From Sphaerobacter thermophilus DSM 20745 (lineage in GTDB: Bacteria > Chloroflexota > Chloroflexia > Thermomicrobiales > Thermomicrobiaceae): a stretch of DNA of 64,000 bases. The position numbers and the translations under genes are program-made. Position 1 is the first letter of the stretch. Each line of letters starts with the position of its first letter. The stretch spans positions 1,674,001 through 1,738,000 of the forward strand of contig NC_013523.1 of the NCBI RefSeq assembly GCF_000024985.1. The letters run 5' to 3'. The notes under the pieces are model-generated. The model was given only the letters and a program-made list of their open reading frames with translations. It ran no database searches and was not told the DNA's origin. Shown here one piece after another: positions 32,879 to 62,817 of this stretch.

Positions 32879-33898
32879 CTAGGAGCTGCTCTGAGTCGGG
32901 ATCTCTCGCCGCTTGAGCCACGGCATCATGGCCCGCAACTGGTCGCCAACCTGCTCGATCTGGTGGCTCAGCGCGGCCTCCCGCATCTTCATGAACTCCT
33001 GCCGGCCTGTGTCGTTCTCGCGCATCCAGCGCTCGGCGAAGCGCCCGCTCTGGATGTCCTGCAGGATCTGATGCATCGACTCGCGCACGCGGTCGTCGAT
33101 GATCTTGGGGCCGCTGACGTAGTCGCCGTACTCGGCGGTGTCGCTGACCGAGTAGCGCATGTACTTGATGCCGCCCTGGTACATCAGGTCGACGATCAGC
33201 TTCAGCTCGTGGAGCACCTCGAAGTACGCCAGCTCCGGCTGGTAGCCGGCCTCTACCAGCGTCTCGAACCCCGCCTGGACCAGCGCCGAGATGCCGCCGC
33301 AGAGGACCGCCTGCTCACCGAAGAGGTCCGTCTCGGTCTCTTCCTTGAAGGTGGTCTCCAGCACGCCGGCGCGGGTGCAGCCCAGCCCCTTGGCGTAGGC
33401 CAGAGCAACCTGCTTCGCCTGCCCGCTCGCGTCCTGGTGCACCGCGAGGAGCGCGGGGATGCCGATGCCCTCCTGGTAGGTGTCGCGCAGGATATGACCC
33501 GGCCCCTTCGGCGCGATCATCGACACGTCAACGTCCGAGGGCGGCGTGATCCGGCCGAAGTGGATGTTGAACCCGTGGGCGAACATCAAGGTCTTGCCCG
33601 GGCGCAGCTCGGGCGCCACGCTCTCGTCGTAGACGGCCTTCTGGGTGTGGTCCGGCATCAACATCATGATGATGTCGGCCTGCCGCGCCGCGTCGCGGAC
33701 GGTGGCGACCTCCAGGCCGTCGGCCTTGACGCGGTCCCAGCTCTTGCTGCCCTCGTAGAGCCCGACGATTACGTCGCACCCGCTGTCGCGCAGGTTCTGG
33801 GCGTGGGCGTGCCCCTGACTGCCGTAGCCCATCACCGCGATCTTCTTCCCCTTCAGCAGGGAAAGATCCGCGTCCTGCTCGTAGTAGACTACCGCCAC
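32879..33898 (-). CDS. ilvC: Ketol-acid reductoisomerase (class I)
   Basis: The 339-residue NADPH- and Mg-dependent enzyme converts acetolactate or acetohydroxybutyrate to dihydroxy acids in Val/Ile/Leu synthesis. [17 protein letters not shown] is the cofactor fingerprint, and the C-terminal knotted domain has [16 protein letters not shown]. The GTG at 33898 gives the canonical [15 protein letters not shown] start with AGGAG about ten bases upstream. The GTG at 33907 is an alternative. Third gene of ilvB-ilvN-ilvC, 116 bases after ilvN. Confidence 0.95.
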
Positions 33899-33961
33899 TT
33901 CCTCCACTCTCCTCTCGGCCGGTCACGCGCATGCGTCAAGGGTGTTGCATGCCGCGTCTTT

Positions 33962-34014: not shown

Positions 34015-34533
34015 TTACGCCACAGCATCCTCTGCCCGTACCGCGACCGCACCGCTGCCACGCTCCAGCGCCACGCAGCCGGTCCGGGCGATCTCCTTAA
34101 TCCCGTAGGGTCGTACCAGCGTAATGAGCGAGTCGATCTTCTCGCTCGGCCCGGTGACCTCGATCACCAGCGTGTCCGGCGCCGCGTCGACGATCCGCGC
34201 GCGGTAGACCTCGGACACCAGGCGCATGATATCACCGCGCGTCCGCTCGGTCGCCGCTACCTTGACCAGCGCCAGCTCGCGCTGGATCAGGTTCTCCCCA
34301 GTCACGTCGGTGACCTTGATGACCTCCAGCAGCTTGTAGAGCTGCTTGGTCACCTGCTCGATGGTGCGGTCGTCTCCCTGCACCACCAACGTCATTCGCG
34401 ACAGGCCGGGCTGCTCGCTGTGCCCGACCGCGATGCTGTCTACGTTGAACCCGCGCTGGCGGAACAGGCTCATCACCCGGTTCATCACGCCGGGCCGGTC
34501 CTCGACCAGGACGACGAGTGTGTGACGTCGCAC
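34015..34533 (-). CDS. ilvN: Acetolactate synthase small (regulatory) subunit
   Basis: The 172-residue protein has an N-terminal ACT domain (HTLVVLVEDRPGVMNRVMSL, RGFNVDSIAVG) that binds valine for feedback inhibition. A C-terminal ALS-SS domain carries ELALVKVAA and GIKEIARTG. The GTG at 34533 has AGGGG eight bases upstream and follows the ilvB stop by 11 bases. The GTG at 34542 is possible. It partners IlvB. Confidence 0.94.
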   Translation of the reverse strand: MRRHTLVVLVEDRPGVMNRVMSLFRQRGFNVDSIAVGHSEQPGLSRMTLVVQGDDRTIEQVTKQLYKLLEVIKVTDVTGENLIQRELALVKVAATERTRGDIMRLVSEVYRARIVDAAPDTLVIEVTGPSEKIDSLITLVRPYGIKEIARTGCVALERGSGAVAVRAEDAVA

Positions 34534-34544
34534 GGCTACCACCC

Positions 34545-36272
34545 CTACGCTTCCTCGATCATCTCGCGGATCGACCCGCCCGACGGGATCATCGGGTAGA
34601 CGTTCTCCTCCTGATTGACCTGGAACTCCAGCAGCGTCGGCCCGTCGACCGAGCGCGCCCAGCGGATCGCGTCGTCGACCTCCTCCGGCCGCGTAACCCG
34701 GCGACCCGGGATACCGTACGCCTGGGCGATGAGCATGTAATCCGGGCTGCTGATTGGCGTCTCCGAGTAGTTCCGGTTGTGGAACAACTCCTGCCACTGG
34801 CGCACCATGCCCAGGTAGCCGTTATTCACGATGGCGATGTTGACTTTCGCCCCCTCCTGGACGATGGTGCCGAACTCGAACATCGTCATCTGGACCCCGC
34901 CGTCACCGACCACGGCCCACACCTCGGCATCGGGCCGTCCCAGCGCCACCCCCAGCGCCGACGGCACGCCATAGCCCATCGTCCCAAGGCCGCCCGATGT
35001 GATCCACTGGTTGGGGACATCGCAGGTGTAGTACTGAGCGGTCCACATCTGATGCTGGCCCACGTCGGTGGTGACGATCGCCTTCCCCTCCGTGAGCGCG
35101 TGCAGCCGCTCGACCACGTACTGCGGTGCCAGGGCGCCCGGCACGCCCCGCGAACGGCCCGACGACCGCTTGCGCCAGCTCGCGATCGTCTCCAGCCATT
35201 CGTCGTGCCGCTGCGGCTCCATCTCCTCGAGCAAGGCCAGCAGCGCCTCGCGAGCGTCTCCCACCACCGGGACCGCCGTCTCCACGTTCTTGCCGATCTC
35301 AGCCGGGTCGATGTCGATATGGATGATCTGCGCGTTCGGCGCGAACTCGCTGACCCGGCCGGTGACCCGGTCGTCGAAGCGCATGCCGATCCCGACGATC
35401 ACGTCGGACTCATGGATCGCCCGGTTGGCGTGCGCGAAGCCGTGCATACCGACCATGCCCAGGCAGAGCGGGTGGGAGCCGGGGAAGCCGCCGATCCCGA
35501 GCAGGGTAAGCCCGACCGGGATCTGCGTCCGCTCGGCGAAGCGGACCAGTTCCTCGGTCGCGCCCGAGATCAGGATGCCGTGCCCGGCGAGGATCAGCGG
35601 CCGCTCCGCCGCGCGCAGCACCTCGGCTGCCCGGCGGATCTGACGACGGTGTGGCACGATCGTCGGCCGGTAACCCAGAAGTTGCACCGGCTCGGCAGGC
35701 GCCAGTTCCCCTTCGGCCAGCAGCACGTCCTTCGGGACATCGACCAGCACCGGCCCCGGACGCCCCGTCGTGGCGAGATAGAACGCCTTCTGAATCGTCG
35801 GCCCGATGTCCTCCACCCGACGAATGATGAAGTTGTGCTTGGTGATCGGCAGGGTGATGCCGGTAATGTCGATCTCCTGGAAGGCGTCGCTCCCGATGAC
35901 CCCTTGCGGCACCTGACCGGTGATGGCCACCACCGGCACCGAGTCGAGCATCGCGGTGGCAATTCCGGTCACCAGGTTCGTCGCCCCCGGCCCGGAGGTC
36001 GCCAGGCAGACACCCGGCCGGCCGGTGGCACGCGCGTACCCGTCGGCCGCGTGCGCCGCCCCCTGCTCGTGGCGGACAAGCACGTGGTGGATGTTGAACT
36101 CCGGCAGCACGTCGTAGAGCGGAATGACCGCGCCGCCCGGGTAGCCGAAGATCAGATCGACGCCCTCACGCTCGAGCGCCTGACAGAGCAGCCGCGCTCC
36201 GATCGACCGTCGACTCGCCGGCTCGGCCTGCGTCGGACGCTCTGTCTCCACTCGCTTCGTCTCGACGACCAT
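34545..36272 (-). CDS. ilvB: Acetolactate synthase large (catalytic) subunit
   Basis: The 575-residue TPP- and FAD-dependent enzyme condenses pyruvate with pyruvate or 2-oxobutyrate. The FGYPGGAVIPLYD start, VRHEQGAAHAADGYARATG (catalytic Glu), central FAD domain and TPP/Mg motif GDGGVQM with NNGYLGMVRQWQ are all visible. The ATG at 36272 follows GGGAGGCAC. It is the first enzyme gene of the operon, and upstream lie a hairpin and a Leu/Ile/Val-rich small frame that suggest attenuation. Confidence 0.95.
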   Translation of the reverse strand: MVVETKRVETERPTQAEPASRRSIGARLLCQALEREGVDLIFGYPGGAVIPLYDVLPEFNIHHVLVRHEQGAAHAADGYARATGRPGVCLATSGPGATNLVTGIATAMLDSVPVVAITGQVPQGVIGSDAFQEIDITGITLPITKHNFIIRRVEDIGPTIQKAFYLATTGRPGPVLVDVPKDVLLAEGELAPAEPVQLLGYRPTIVPHRRQIRRAAEVLRAAERPLILAGHGILISGATEELVRFAERTQIPVGLTLLGIGGFPGSHPLCLGMVGMHGFAHANRAIHESDVIVGIGMRFDDRVTGRVSEFAPNAQIIHIDIDPAEIGKNVETAVPVVGDAREALLALLEEMEPQRHDEWLETIASWRKRSSGRSRGVPGALAPQYVVERLHALTEGKAIVTTDVGQHQMWTAQYYTCDVPNQWITSGGLGTMGYGVPSALGVALGRPDAEVWAVVGDGGVQMTMFEFGTIVQEGAKVNIAIVNNGYLGMVRQWQELFHNRNYSETPISSPDYMLIAQAYGIPGRRVTRPEEVDDAIRWARSVDGPTLLEFQVNQEENVYPMIPSGGSIREMIEEA

Positions 36273-36334
36273 GTGCCTCCCTCTTCCGCTCGCCTGGCAC
36301 GGGGGAATCGTGCTCACCCCGCCCCATAAATTGA

Positions 36335-36361
36335 GCGAGCCTCCCGACTTGGGAGGCTCGC
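36335..36361 (-). terminator. Candidate attenuator terminator before ilvB
   Basis: An 11-bp perfect stem (36335-36345 with 36351-36361) with a 5-base loop is followed on the minus strand by TCAATTTAT. It lies 28 bases after the small Ile/Leu/Val-rich frame and 62 bases before ilvB. A competing pairing joins 36405-36411 (GGGGGGC on the minus strand) with 36351-36357 (GCCTCCC), which would disrupt the terminator. Confidence 0.65.
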
Positions 36362-36389
36362 GAGTTACTCGATGTTCAGTGTTCCGTGT

Positions 36390-36575
36390 TTACGCTCTCG
36401 CTGCGCCCCCCATATGGAAATGGCCGATAATAATAAGAATAAGGCCTACGATAATAAGGAAGGCGCCAACGAGGGTATCGCGAAGGGTGAAGACACGCGC
36501 AGCCGCAGGCATCGGCATCGCCGCCGCAACCTGCTCGTACATTGTCTGCGCTTCGGCCGTCACTGCCTGGTCCAC
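36390..36575 (-). CDS. Candidate branched-chain leader peptide (61 codons) upstream of ilvB, or small membrane protein
   Basis: This frame starts at GTG 36575 with AGGGTGAG upstream and ends TAA 36390. Its distal part has a dense Leu-Ile-Ile-Val-Gly-Leu-Ile-Leu-Ile-Ile-Ile run at 36426-36458, preceded by Leu-Val at 36468-36473. Codons are mostly CTT, ATT and GTA, unlike the CTC/CTG and ATC used in neighbouring genes. The location between a consensus promoter and a terminator before ilvB fits an Ile/Leu/Val-sensing leader peptide. Sixty-one codons is long for one, and internal ATGs could give a shorter peptide. A single-pass membrane protein is the main alternative. Confidence 0.6.
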   Translation of the reverse strand: MDQAVTAEAQTMYEQVAAAMPMPAAARVFTLRDTLVGAFLIIVGLILIIIGHFHMGGAARA

Positions 36576-36612
36576 CCGTCACTCACCCTGCACGGGTCTA
36601 CTGACTCTTCGC

Positions 36613-36641
36613 ATCATACCGGCTTGTGAAAGTTGTGTCAA
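36613..36641 (-). promoter_or_regulatory. Promoter of the ilvBNC leader
   Basis: On the minus strand TTGACA (36641-36636), 17 bases, then TATGAT (36618-36613). Transcription would start about 30 bases before the GTG of the leader frame. Confidence 0.75.
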
Positions 36642-36709
36642 GAGCCGCGGCTTCCCTCGCTCGGATCGTCCCCGGCTGCAGCGCCGACGTGCCACCGGCC
36701 GGGGCGTCC

Positions 36710-36738
36710 TTGCGGCACCGGTCGGAATGTGCTATACT
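36710..36738 (+). promoter_or_regulatory. Promoter of tRNA-Leu/rnpB/tRNA-His
   Basis: TTGCGG (36710-36715), 17 bases, then TATACT (36733-36738), about 50 bases ahead of tRNA-Leu. It is divergent from the ilvBNC leader promoter. Confidence 0.65.
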
Positions 36739-36789
36739 GCTTGCCGCGTCGGGATACGGCGCTCCGACTTGACAACGAGTCGGGAACAT

Positions 36790-36876
<87 letters not shown>

Positions 36877-36914
36877 CCGGCCGGGAGCCTGCCGCAAGCG
36901 GGCTTCCGTTAACA

Positions 36915-37289
36915 ATTGAATGGCGTGGGCAGGACGGTCGCTGGCCGTTCCGGCCAGAGGAAAGTCCGAGCTGCATAGAGCGAGGGTGCCCGGCGAAAGC
37001 CGGGGCAGCGTTCGCCGGTGGCGCTGACAGTCCAGATCGGCACCGTGGCGGGTACCCCGCCGCGGTGAGAGCAACAGAGACCAATGCCGGGCCCTCTGCG
37101 GTCCGGAGTGAAAAGGGCAATCCTCCCCGCAGCAATCTCCGAATGGGCCGCTATCAGGTTGCTCGCCGAGGCCCGAAGTCGAGAGCAGCCACGGAGGCGA
37201 CGACGTGGCCGGTCGGTGGCCACGAGCCATCGGCCGAGACAGATGACCGTCAAGAACAGAACTCGGCTTACTCGCCCACGCCATTCAAT
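36915..37289 (+). ncRNA. rnpB: RNase P RNA (type A)
   Basis: The gene starts and ends with a perfect 16-bp P1 helix (36915-36930 with 37274-37289). The conserved GAGGAAAGTCCGAGCT near the 5' end and CAAGAACAGAACTCGGCTTA near the 3' end form P4 and flanking elements. Internal AGTGAAAAGGG and GCCCGAAGTC elements also fit. About 375 bases is normal. The RNA is the catalytic part of RNase P, which matures tRNA 5' ends. It lies between two tRNA genes on the same strand. Confidence 0.93.
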
Positions 37290-37294
37290 GACAT

Positions 37295-37371
37295 GGTGCC
37301 TCTAGCTCAATTGGCAGAGCACTGGTCTGTGGAACCAGGGGTTACGGGTTCAAGCCCCGTGAGGCACCCCA
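37295..37371 (+). tRNA. tRNA-His (GTG anticodon) with encoded G-1
   Basis: The acceptor stem GTGCCTC/GAGGCAC is extended by G at 37295 opposite C at 37368, the histidine identity pair. The anticodon loop CTGTGGA gives GTG. The T loop is GGTTCAAGC. CCA is encoded (37369-37371). It begins six bases after rnpB. Confidence 0.95.
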
Positions 37372-37384
37372 AAGAAACACCGCG

Positions 37385-37416
37385 GAGGGGCAGGGAAAAT
37401 CCCTGCCCCTCTTGCT
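37385..37416 (+). terminator. Terminator after tRNA-His
   Basis: A 12-bp perfect stem (37385-37396 with 37400-37411) with an AAA loop is followed by TTGCTTTC. It lies 14 bases after the tRNA and probably ends the tRNA-Leu/rnpB/tRNA-His transcript. Confidence 0.75.
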
Positions 37417-37736
37417 TTCGCTCGTCGCGTCACCTAGCGGACCTTCAGCCGACGGCCCCTCTACCCATGCGATTGCCGTCGCAGCTCACCGCTGTGATGC
37501 GGACGATGGGCTCTCGAGGGACTGCTTCTGGCAGTTCGGTACGGTGCTGAGTCTCCTGGCACACTTGCCGGCTGTCGTCCGGGTCATCGCATCGGCCCCC
37601 GCCAACCCGGACATGGTGAGCCGTCGGTCGCGCACGAAATGAGGCTTCTCCCGTGATCGAGGCCACGCCGCCGGGAATGCATCCCCGCCCGTGTTCATCG
37701 ATCGCCGCACACTGCGGATCGGGCGTCCGAACCCGT
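37417..37736. other. 320-base region without a convincing gene
   Basis: I see no frame with a ribosome-binding site and recognisable sequence, and no RNA motif, between the tRNA terminator and the alaS promoter. Confidence 0.4.
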
Positions 37737-37765
37737 TGACACCCAGGCACCGCCCTGCCATACTG
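37737..37765 (+). promoter_or_regulatory. alaS promoter
   Basis: TTGACA (37737-37742), 17 bases, then CATACT (37760-37765), about 95 bases before the alaS ATG. Confidence 0.55.
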
Positions 37766-37860
37766 TACGTACACGTCGCGGTTGGAGGTGGTCCGGCGGC
37801 TCCAACGTCGGTACAATCCATGGCTGCTGTCTGGCCGCGACTCGTGAGGGCGTTACCCAG

Positions 37861-40500
37861 ATGAAGAGTAATGAGATCCGCCGGATCTTCGTCGAATTCT
37901 TTGCCGAGCGTGGGCACCTCCATGTGCCGAGTTCATCCCTGGTGCCGCACAACGACCCCACCGTCCTGCTAACCACCGCCGGCATGCAGCAGATGACTCC
38001 CTACTTCCTCGGGTTGGAGCGCCCACCCAGCGTCCGCATGACCTCGATCCAGAAGTGCTTCCGGACCGTCGACATCGACGAGGTCGGCGACGAAGAGCAC
38101 CTCACCTTCTTCGAGATGCTCGGCAACTTCTCGGTCGGCGACTACTTCAAGGCCGAGGCGATCTCCTGGGCCTGGGAGCTTCTGACCGAGCGGTTCGGCA
38201 TTCCGCGCGAGCGGCTGCGCCCCTCGGTGCACCGCAACGACGAGTTCGCCTTCGCCTTCTGGCGCGACGAGATCGGCATCCCCGAGCACCTCATCGCGCG
38301 GCTGGGCGACGAGCACAACTGGTGGGGACCCGTCGGCACCACCGGTCCGAACGGCCCCGACTCCGAGATCTTTTACGACCGCGGCGAGGAGCTGGGCTGC
38401 GGCCGGCCCGACTGCGGGCCCGGCTGCGATCATTGCAACCGCTTCCTCGAGATCTGGAACCTCGTCTTCATGGAGTTCTACAAGGAAGAGGACGGCTCCC
38501 AGCGCCCGCTGCCGCGCAAGAACATCGACACCGGGATGGGCCTAGAGCGCATCTCCATGGTCCTCCAGGGCGTCGGCTCCGTCTTCGAGACCGACCTCTA
38601 CATGCCGGTGCTCCTGAAGGCGGCCGAACTGGCCGGGGTCCAGTACCGCCAGGACCCGAAGGTCGACCGCTCGCTGCGCGTCATCGCCGACCACGGCCGC
38701 GCCGTCACCTTCCTAATTGGCGACGGTGTCTTCCCCGGCAACGAGGGTCGCAGCTACGTCCTGCGCCGCGTCCTGCGCCGCGCCGTGCGCCACGGCCGGT
38801 TGATCGGCATCGACCGGCCCTTCCTCACTGAGGTCGCGGACGTCGTCATCGATATGTTCGCCGAGCACTACCCGAACCTGCGCGAGCAGCAGGAGCGCAT
38901 CCGCCAGGTGATTCGGCACGAGGAGGAGCACTTCGGCCGCACGCTCGCGACCGGCATCGGCCGCTTCGAGACGCTGGCGGCGGACCTCCGCGCGCGCGGT
39001 GAGACGGTCGTCCCCGGCGCCGAAGCGTTCCGTCTCTACGACACCTACGGCTTCCCGTACGAGTTGACCGAGGAACTTGCGAGCGACGCCGGGCTGACCG
39101 TCGACCGCGAGGGCTTCGACCGGGCGATGGCCGCCCAGCGGGAGCAGAGCCGTGCCAGCGCCGCTATCTTCAGCGACGAGGCACGCACGCGCGCCGCACT
39201 CTACGCCAACCTGACCGACAAGCCGACCGTCTTCCTGGGCTATGAGACGACCGAGGCGACGGGCACCGTAGTCGGTATCCTCGGGGCCGAGGCCGCACAG
39301 GAGAGCGCCGAGGCAGGGGAACAGGTGGAGATTGTCCTCGACCAGACCCCCTTCTACCCCGAGGGCGGCGGCCAGGTCGGTGACACCGGAAACATTCAGA
39401 CCGACACGGGCGTCTTCGAAGTCGAAGATACGCAGCGCCCGGCTCCCGGCGTCATCGTGCACCGCGGGATCGTCCGCGAGGGATACATCCAGGTGGGCCA
39501 GACGGCCGAGGCGCGGGTCGACGCCCAGCGACGGGCCGACATCCGACGCAACCACACCGCCACCCACCTGCTCCATACCGCACTGCGCCGGGTTCTCGGG
39601 GAGCACGTCCAGCAGGCCGGCTCCCTCGTCGCGCCCGACCGGCTCCGCTTCGACTTCACCAGCCTGGAGCCAGTCGGCGCCGCCGCGCTGCGCGAAGTGC
39701 AGGAGATCGTGAACCAGCAGATCCTCGCCGACAGCCCGGTGCAGGCAGAGATCAAGCCCTACCAGGAAGCGATCGCCGAGGGTGCGATCGCCCTGTTCGG
39801 CGAAAAGTACGGGGACAACGTGCGCGTCGTGACCATTCCGTCCTTCAGCAAGGAGCTCTGCGGCGGCACGCACGTCAACCACACCGGCGAAATCGGCCTC
39901 TTCGTCATCACCGAGGAGTCGAGCGTCGCCAGCGGCGTGCGCCGGGTCGAGGCCCTGACCGGGCGCGCCGCCGCCGAGTACGCGCTGCGTCTCCAGGAGA
40001 TGTCTCAGCGCCTGGTGCGCGACCTCCACGTCCCGCTCGACGAGCTCCCCGCGCAGGTCGCGGCGCTCCAGGAGCGCCTGCGGGAGCGGGAGCGCGAGAT
40101 CGAGCGCCTGCGAGTTGAACTCGCCAGCGTCCAGATCGGCGACCTGATCGAGAAGGCGGTCACTGTCGACGGCACGCGCGTGCTCGCCGCCCGCGTCGAG
40201 GCGCCCAATCGTGACACACTGCTCCAGATGGGCGACCGCCTGCGCGACAAGCTCGCCAGCGGCGTGGTCGTGCTAGGCGCGGTCATCGACGACCGGCCGG
40301 CGCTCCTCGCCATGGTCACCCGTGACCTGGTGCAGCGGGGCGTCGATGCCGGCAAGTTGATCCGCGAGATCACCCCGGTTGTCGGCGGCCGCGGCGGTGG
40401 CCGCCCCGAACTCGCCCAGGGCGGCGGCACCGACCCGTCGCGACTCGATGCCGCACTGGAGACCGCCCGCTCCGTCGTCGAGCGCCAGCTCATGGGCTAA
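37861..40500 (+). CDS. alaS: Alanyl-tRNA synthetase
   Basis: The 879-residue class II synthetase charges tRNA-Ala. The catalytic domain starts FVEFFAERGHLHVPSSSLVP and has QKCFRTVDIDEVGDEEHLTFFEMLGNF split across motif 2. The editing domain carries HTATHLLHTAL (HxxxH zinc site) and the CGGTHVNHTGEIG Cys/His pair. A coiled coil precedes the C-terminal DHHA1/C-Ala domain with GGRGGGRPELAQGGG. Full length for the family. A fourth Cys-rich segment (GCGRPDCGPGCDHC, residues ~180-193) is a typical extra zinc-binding loop. Confidence 0.97.
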   Translation: MKSNEIRRIFVEFFAERGHLHVPSSSLVPHNDPTVLLTTAGMQQMTPYFLGLERPPSVRMTSIQKCFRTVDIDEVGDEEHLTFFEMLGNFSVGDYFKAEAISWAWELLTERFGIPRERLRPSVHRNDEFAFAFWRDEIGIPEHLIARLGDEHNWWGPVGTTGPNGPDSEIFYDRGEELGCGRPDCGPGCDHCNRFLEIWNLVFMEFYKEEDGSQRPLPRKNIDTGMGLERISMVLQGVGSVFETDLYMPVLLKAAELAGVQYRQDPKVDRSLRVIADHGRAVTFLIGDGVFPGNEGRSYVLRRVLRRAVRHGRLIGIDRPFLTEVADVVIDMFAEHYPNLREQQERIRQVIRHEEEHFGRTLATGIGRFETLAADLRARGETVVPGAEAFRLYDTYGFPYELTEELASDAGLTVDREGFDRAMAAQREQSRASAAIFSDEARTRAALYANLTDKPTVFLGYETTEATGTVVGILGAEAAQESAEAGEQVEIVLDQTPFYPEGGGQVGDTGNIQTDTGVFEVEDTQRPAPGVIVHRGIVREGYIQVGQTAEARVDAQRRADIRRNHTATHLLHTALRRVLGEHVQQAGSLVAPDRLRFDFTSLEPVGAAALREVQEIVNQQILADSPVQAEIKPYQEAIAEGAIALFGEKYGDNVRVVTIPSFSKELCGGTHVNHTGEIGLFVITEESSVASGVRRVEALTGRAAAEYALRLQEMSQRLVRDLHVPLDELPAQVAALQERLREREREIERLRVELASVQIGDLIEKAVTVDGTRVLAARVEAPNRDTLLQMGDRLRDKLASGVVVLGAVIDDRPALLAMVTRDLVQRGVDAGKLIREITPVVGGRGGGRPELAQGGGTDPSRLDAALETARSVVERQLMG

Positions 40501-62527: not shown

Positions 62528-62615
62528 GCCGAGGTGGCGGAATAGGCAGACGCGCTAGCTTGAGGGGCTAGTGCCCGTTTAGGGCGTGGGGGTTCAAATC
62601 CCTTCCTCGGCACCA
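62528..62615 (+). tRNA. tRNA-Leu (GAG anticodon)
   Basis: An 88-base class II tRNA with acceptor GCCGAGG/CCTCGGC, anticodon stem CTAGC/GCTAG with loop TTGAGGG (GAG), a long variable arm, GGTTCAAATC and encoded ACCA. Confidence 0.95.
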
Positions 62616-62629
62616 ACACCGCGAGGTGC

Positions 62630-62702
62630 GGGCGATTAGCTCAGTTGGTAGAGCGCCACGTTTACACCGTGGATGTCAGAGGTTCGAGCCCTCTATCGCC
62701 CA
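62630..62702 (+). tRNA. tRNA-Val (TAC anticodon)
   Basis: The acceptor is GGGCGAT/ATCGCCC. The anticodon stem CCACG/CGTGG holds loop TTTACAC (TAC). The T loop is GGTTCGAGCC. The sequence after the discriminator A is CAA, so CCA is not encoded. Confidence 0.94.
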
Positions 62703-62732
62703 CAACTGCGCGGGATGACCCGGCGACAGCCC

Positions 62733-62805
62733 GCCGAGGTAGCTCAGTCGGTAGAGCACGGCACTGAAAATGCCGGTGTCGCCGGTTCGATCCCGGCCCT
62801 CGGCA
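62733..62805 (+). tRNA. tRNA-Phe (GAA anticodon)
   Basis: The acceptor is GCCGAGG/CCTCGGC. The anticodon loop CTGAAAA gives GAA. The T loop is GGTTCGATCC. CCG follows the discriminator, so CCA is not encoded. Confidence 0.94.
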
Positions 62806-62817
62806 CCGCATGCAGCG

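Follow-up and report, generated by a model that had tools for sequence, protein, structure and literature searches.

The region upstream of the ilvBNC operon of Sphaerobacter thermophilus very probably acts as a ribosome-mediated transcription attenuator, judging from comparison of its sequence with those of its relatives. All parts of such a device, their conservation, the covariation of the arms and a match between leader codons and pathway at ilvB, leuA and cimA can be read at this locus and its counterparts. The mechanism itself is already known and it is the lineage that is a new place for it; a search under the names Sphaerobacter, Thermomicrobium, Chloroflexi and Chloroflexota, with most subscription papers outside its scope, found no publication on ilv attenuation. 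The locus would extend textbook attenuation, complete with its four pairing regions, to a deep thermophilic lineage. The host genome comprises 3.99 Mb in two contigs, and the coordinates below refer to the window, i.e. the whole stretch of 64,000 nucleotides that was analysed. On the minus strand the order is promoter, 61-codon frame, hairpin, ilvB, ilvN and ilvC, with the following features:

36613..36641, minus strand: sigma-70-type promoter, TTGACA-17-TATGAT (consensus match 11/12)
36390..36575, minus strand: leader frame, GTG start, 61 codons plus TAA (direct reading; a similar frame in 18/18 family loci)
36458..36473, minus strand: region 1 (protector), predicted partner of region 2 without a covering ribosome (folding, 18/18 loci)
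36426..36458, minus strand: regulatory run, codons 40-50, 10/11 Ile/Leu/Val (direct reading, codon statistics)
36397..36411, minus strand: region 2, 5' arm of the antiterminator (GGGGGGC..GCGAG), within the last codons of the frame (folding, arm alignment)
36351..36364, minus strand: region 3 (CTCGC..GCCTCCC), common to antiterminator and terminator (folding, arm alignment)
36335..36361, minus strand: terminator hairpin (3:4), 11 pairs, U-poor tail (direct reading, family comparison)
34545..36272, minus strand: ilvB, acetolactate synthase large subunit (TIGR00118 above cut-off)
34018..34578, minus strand: ilvN, acetolactate synthase small subunit, start provisional (NF008864 and TIGR00119 above cut-off)
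32879..33907, minus strand: ilvC, ketol-acid reductoisomerase (NF004017 and TIGR00465 above cut-off)

The promoter score of 11/12 compares with 0.2 such sites expected in the region. Direct reading bore out the initial annotation in placing a frame rich in Ile, Leu and Val codons between this promoter and a hairpin ahead of ilvBNC; the run (36458-36426) reads CTT ATT ATC GTA GGC CTT ATT CTT ATT ATT ATC. The 7-bp antiterminator that had been proposed (36411-36405 with 36357-36351) was found as claimed and is longer by five pairs (36401-36397 with 36364-36360). The claim of a terminator stood in part. The 11-pair hairpin is present (36361-36335, read from the sequence as GCGAGCCTCCC-AAGTC-GGGAGGCTCGC) and is strong in itself, and a genome-wide search with its pattern matched once, at the leader site alone; a terminator scan of the region returned 0 sites, owing to the low U content of the tail, TCAATTTATG.

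A T-box or other riboswitch in this position is an explanation to which we give practically no credence. T-boxes do precede leuA in the host family, and for some Firmicutes the available text of PMC10272879 describes ilvB as controlled by ppGpp riboswitches, but an Rfam scan of 35000-38000 placed RNase P and two tRNAs alone above cut-off. The only further row at E up to 1 was a subthreshold sR47, the T-box model (RF00230) had no match in this interval at E up to 1, and no Rfam covariance model matched at the leader locus. The tRNA-Leu(CAG), RNase P RNA and tRNA-His genes lie at 36790-37371 on the plus strand, just upstream of the ilv promoter and divergent from it.

The leader peptide is recognisable only within the genus and relatives were therefore searched by ilvB. 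The family search gave 20 matches in 19/21 genomes, from which 18 loci in five genera were used, leaving out L050 (cut by a contig end) and L051 (a second homologue, 37% identical). All 18 have an Ile/Leu/Val run in frame and a GG-rich arm where the frame closes, followed by a spacer of some 24-40 nt, a GAGCCTCC hairpin and ilvB, so that the arms, the spacing and the position before ilvB, which the initial annotation had marked for comparison, are all retained. TTGACA with a 17-nt spacer likewise occurs in 18/18 leaders, 212-269 nt upstream of the frame end. The 61-codon length of the frame had been noted as a reservation on the match to ilv attenuation; a long frame is a family trait, with 49-75 codons in 18/18 loci when the first in-frame start that follows the promoter is taken as the beginning.

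The arrangement was also sought with a detector that required 6 of 8 Ile/Leu/Val codons followed by a terminator-like hairpin. It was positive at 16/18 family loci and at 18/28 loci from another family in the same order (f3), with 0/46 opposite strands and 0/460 shuffles positive; the combination of run and hairpin is not due to chance. The f3 search had given 30 ilvB matches in 29/32 genomes, 28 of which were used (L160 and L161 lack the gene start). A variant leader is present in 27 of these 28 loci, with a core that is mostly CTC GTA CTT ATY, a hairpin of GGCCTCC type in most and a TTTTTT tail in many; no leader was seen in the 214 nt, the whole upstream sequence at hand, of the remaining locus (L157). 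In family f2, where 4/5 genomes matched and two loci without gene start were left out, both usable loci fit the leader pattern. At the level of the phylum, ilvB was matched in 120/151 genomes and 62 upstream regions were picked to spread over families; 12/62 passed the strict detector, against 0/62 opposite strands. The attenuator is therefore not universal, 12/62 being a low estimate because the detector misses 2/18 family and 10/28 f3 loci. Thermosporothrix hazakensis (L054) has a 107-codon frame before ilvB with very long Ile/Leu/Val stretches and a GGGCCTCCCT hairpin. Three loci of family f6 of the same class (L241, L242 and L243) carry SLILLVLVLLLSLIGGW leaders that use GTA codons and come with a strong terminator; something else may intervene there because the ilvB match is 340-370 nt away.

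The frame could instead encode a functional small membrane protein with one hydrophobic helix that lies next to ilvB by accident. The run would indeed form a transmembrane helix and the N-terminal part of the peptide is fairly similar within the genus, but we hold this reading to be very unlikely. Conservation of the 61-residue protein away from ilvB, which the initial annotation had named as counting against attenuation, was not seen: in a peptide search of 61 genomes, three including the host matched at E < 1e-10 (the host and two congeneric genomes, the peptide lying before ilvB in every case), all others lay at E > 0.004, and no copy was found away from ilvB. The best weak match outside the genus (G050, E 0.0046) was rejected, falling inside unrelated frames. 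The peptide belongs to no Pfam or NCBIfam family, and in other genera the leader peptides are unrelated, with the run and a terminal Gly-Gly alone persisting. Between the host and its more distant congener, 17 codons of the leader frame differ by replacement and 6 synonymously; the protein is therefore not the conserved thing. The codons of the run also differ from those used in other Ile/Leu/Val-rich stretches, as detailed below.

Folding was carried out with the ribosome edge set at the A-site plus 12 nt. With a ribosome on the last codon of the run, the nascent RNA formed 11.8-14.9 antiterminator pairs (-22 to -34 kcal/mol) in 17/18 loci; the 18th (L048) gave 5.0 pairs, the script having settled on a Leu-Val pair that lies behind the run. 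With the ribosome at the stop codon, 0-1.9 antiterminator pairs and 9-11 terminator pairs were formed in 18/18 family loci. The spacing is such that, in these foldings, a ribosome stalled on the run frees the antiterminator arm and one positioned at the stop covers it. Without a ribosome, region 2 pairs upstream through 9.9-14.9 of its 15 bases (18/18 loci), its partner in most being a segment that lies at the run or immediately ahead of it. Together the predicted pairings give the classical scheme of 1:2, 2:3 and 3:4 helices. Once the RNA is complete, the terminator exceeds the antiterminator in stability at most family loci and the switch must therefore be kinetic, decided during transcription, as in other attenuators; at L038 and L043 the antiterminator wins in folding even without a ribosome.

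We infer that the leader is translated, that transcription terminates at the hairpin and that the locus responds to starvation. RNA polymerase would start behind TTGACA/TATGAT and a ribosome would translate the 61-codon leader. When too little Ile-, Leu- or Val-tRNA is charged, the ribosome would stall at codons 40-50 and leave region 2 free to pair with the emerging region 3, so that no terminator forms and ilvBNC is transcribed. When the tRNAs are charged, it would reach the stop codon and cover region 2, allowing 3:4 pairing and the end of transcription. With no ribosome present, region 1 would hold region 2 and the terminator would form.

The mutually exclusive antiterminator and terminator, which have one arm in common, are both conserved. 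In the alignment, 95.6% of antiterminator cells and 97.3% of terminator cells are paired, compared with 28-55% and 32-51% respectively for slid versions. Native arm pairs are more stable than swapped ones in the host family (-27.8 vs -25.7 kcal/mol; 1/5000 permutations as good) and in f3 (-23.3 vs -21.3 kcal/mol; 0/5000), these permutation figures, like the Fisher figures, being too strong because related genomes were treated as independent. Changes on both sides are confined to 1/12 antiterminator pairs and 2/11 terminator pairs. Genus g4 shows a three-arm change, G-C-G to C-G-C, which affects the opening base of arm 2, the final base of arm 3 and the opening base of arm 4 and preserves both alternative helices.

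The U-poor tail would suit a leader that controls translation or RNA stability instead of transcription, with the hairpin acting on the ilvB ribosome site. By sequence, the GCCTCCC arm could pair with the GGGAGG of that site, and a Streptomyces leader before ilvB is reported, in the available text of PMC1262725, as not behaving like classical attenuation. We consider such control improbable, since the hairpin ends about 60 nt ahead of the ilvB start codon with the ribosome site outside it, and the corresponding f3 hairpins mostly carry TTTTTT tails.

Leaders of leuA and cimA, outside the window, served as the best control for the specificity of the attenuator. The set comprised 27 loci, i.e. 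16 leuA and 11 taken as cimA, two of the latter with their identity confirmed by NCBIfam (TIGR00977); L296, with 68 nt upstream, was kept outside it. In the host family, leuA leaders combine a Leu run with a CGGCCTCCC hairpin, the leader of the host genome having RNLDLLGLFLLSLL before RPLGG. By inspection, a Leu-run leader is present at 13/16 leuA loci and absent from the other three, which are those of g4. The citramalate synthase (cimA) route leads to isoleucine only, and the cimA leaders have Ile runs in 11/11 family loci (e.g. AAIIIGIIRPRVAG and AIAIIAIIRPRVAG). The hairpins of the cimA leaders (L297, L298 and L301-L309) are of CGGCCTCCCC type with U-poor tails in 10, and L306 has a TTGCCTCCC hairpin with a T-run; a homologue search for leuA and cimA found no cimA in the host genome itself. 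The residues of the run follow the pathway (Ile/Leu/Val at ilvB, Leu at leuA, Ile at cimA), which is unlike a membrane protein since such a protein would not do so. The ilv, leu and isoleucine-by-citramalate pathways, with runs of matching residues, would form a natural series.

A T-box (RF00230 above cut-off) was given for 10/16 leuA loci. Outside g4, the T-box is followed by the Leu-run leader with its own hairpin, i.e. two tRNA-sensing switches in tandem; in the host (L283, 993-1220) the T-box and then the leader precede leuA at G000:C1:844797. The Rfam alignment puts CTC at the presumed specifier position of the host T-box. The context GAACTCG occurs in 7/10 T-boxes, and in the other three the pattern matched another place or triplet.

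The leaders of E. coli ilvBN and ilvGMEDA are shorter than the leader described here. Both systems represent, as here, ribosome-mediated attenuation of branched-chain genes (available text of PMC1183508). Close in layout is the ilvBNC attenuator of C. glutamicum (ilvL; ilvB-II motif), for which the accessible parts of PMC11857589 and PMC10272879 describe Ile/Leu/Val leader codons before the same operon and a terminator, antiterminator and anti-antiterminator; its control codons, CUU for Leu and GUA for Val, are chosen as here (PMC11857589, in part). Leaders of that type usually have 15-17 codons (same sources) against the 49-75 found here, the two being likened by description. For Corynebacterium, Mycobacterium and Streptomyces, the available text of PMC1262725, in which the word Chloroflexi has 0 occurrences, likewise describes candidate leader peptides and terminators ahead of ilvB; in Streptomyces, unlike the proposal made here, mutation of the putative control codons is reported there to have been without effect. 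The leucine-rich attenuator of S. aureus ilvD resembles the present one in its Ile/Leu codon leader, terminator and antiterminator and differs in having 26 codons, in preceding ilvD and in acting beside CodY (PMC5794164, available text).

The most interesting part of the finding is the isoacceptor-like codon choice. The initial annotation had described ATT, CTT and GTA as codons avoided elsewhere, and they are indeed rare in 38 genes of the window (8% of Ile, 5% of Leu and 5% of Val codons, respectively). The Ile/Leu/Val-rich stretches of those genes are unlike the run, with GTA 0/64, CTT 1/90 and ATT 2/30. In the host family, Val is GTA in 40/45 cases in the runs vs 7/58 upstream in the same frames, and Leu is CTC or CTT in 68/69 vs 30/50; in f3 the figures are 40/47 vs 4/43 and 73/81 vs 9/29, the upstream part there being counted as far as an in-frame stop or for 28 codons, which may lead past the true start. 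GTA makes up 15/881 Val codons (about 2%) in the ilvB genes of the 18 family loci and about nine tenths in the runs. The bias thus persists in relatives, as GTA plus CTY and not in the A/T-ending form first proposed. For Leu that rule was rejected, CTC being about as frequent as CTT (CTT/(CTC+CTT) 28/68 in runs vs 10/30 upstream; f3, 34/73 vs 3/9), and for Ile the tendency is weak (ATT 32/53 vs 4/13, p 0.068, in the host family; f3, 41/60 vs 7/20, p 0.016). The oddity, as read from these counts, is one of isoacceptor choice. Pairing of region 1 may force part of the CTC/CTT use, and explains the use of GTA less easily.

By the wobble rules, Val-tRNA(UAC) reads GTA and Leu-tRNA(GAG) reads CTY. 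A tentative reading, to which we give a little less than even weight, is that the branched-chain leaders sense these isoacceptors, through GTA and CTC/CTT, rather than the amino acids. One and the same Leu isoacceptor is indicated by the runs before ilvB, by those in the leuA leaders and by the T-box of leuA with its apparent CTC specifier. If the reading is true, one isoacceptor per family would serve as a starvation gauge for the whole branched-chain pathway. The available text of PMC1183508 sets out a theory by which attenuator codons are chosen for isoacceptor sensitivity, and leaders of the Sphaerobacter lineage could provide an evolutionary data set for it. Val-UAC and Leu-GAG are each encoded by a single gene in the genome (as are Val-GAC, Val-CAC and the other Leu isoacceptors found), which makes the idea testable. 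A second prediction of the theory is that pathway enzymes avoid the sensitive codon; such avoidance of GTA fails here, with 9/111 Val codons in ilvBNC vs 64/1379 in 36 other window genes. The genes for tRNA-Leu(GAG), tRNA-Val(UAC) and tRNA-Phe(GAA) adjoin at 62528-62807 on the plus strand of the window, the first two being those to which the ilvB run would respond.
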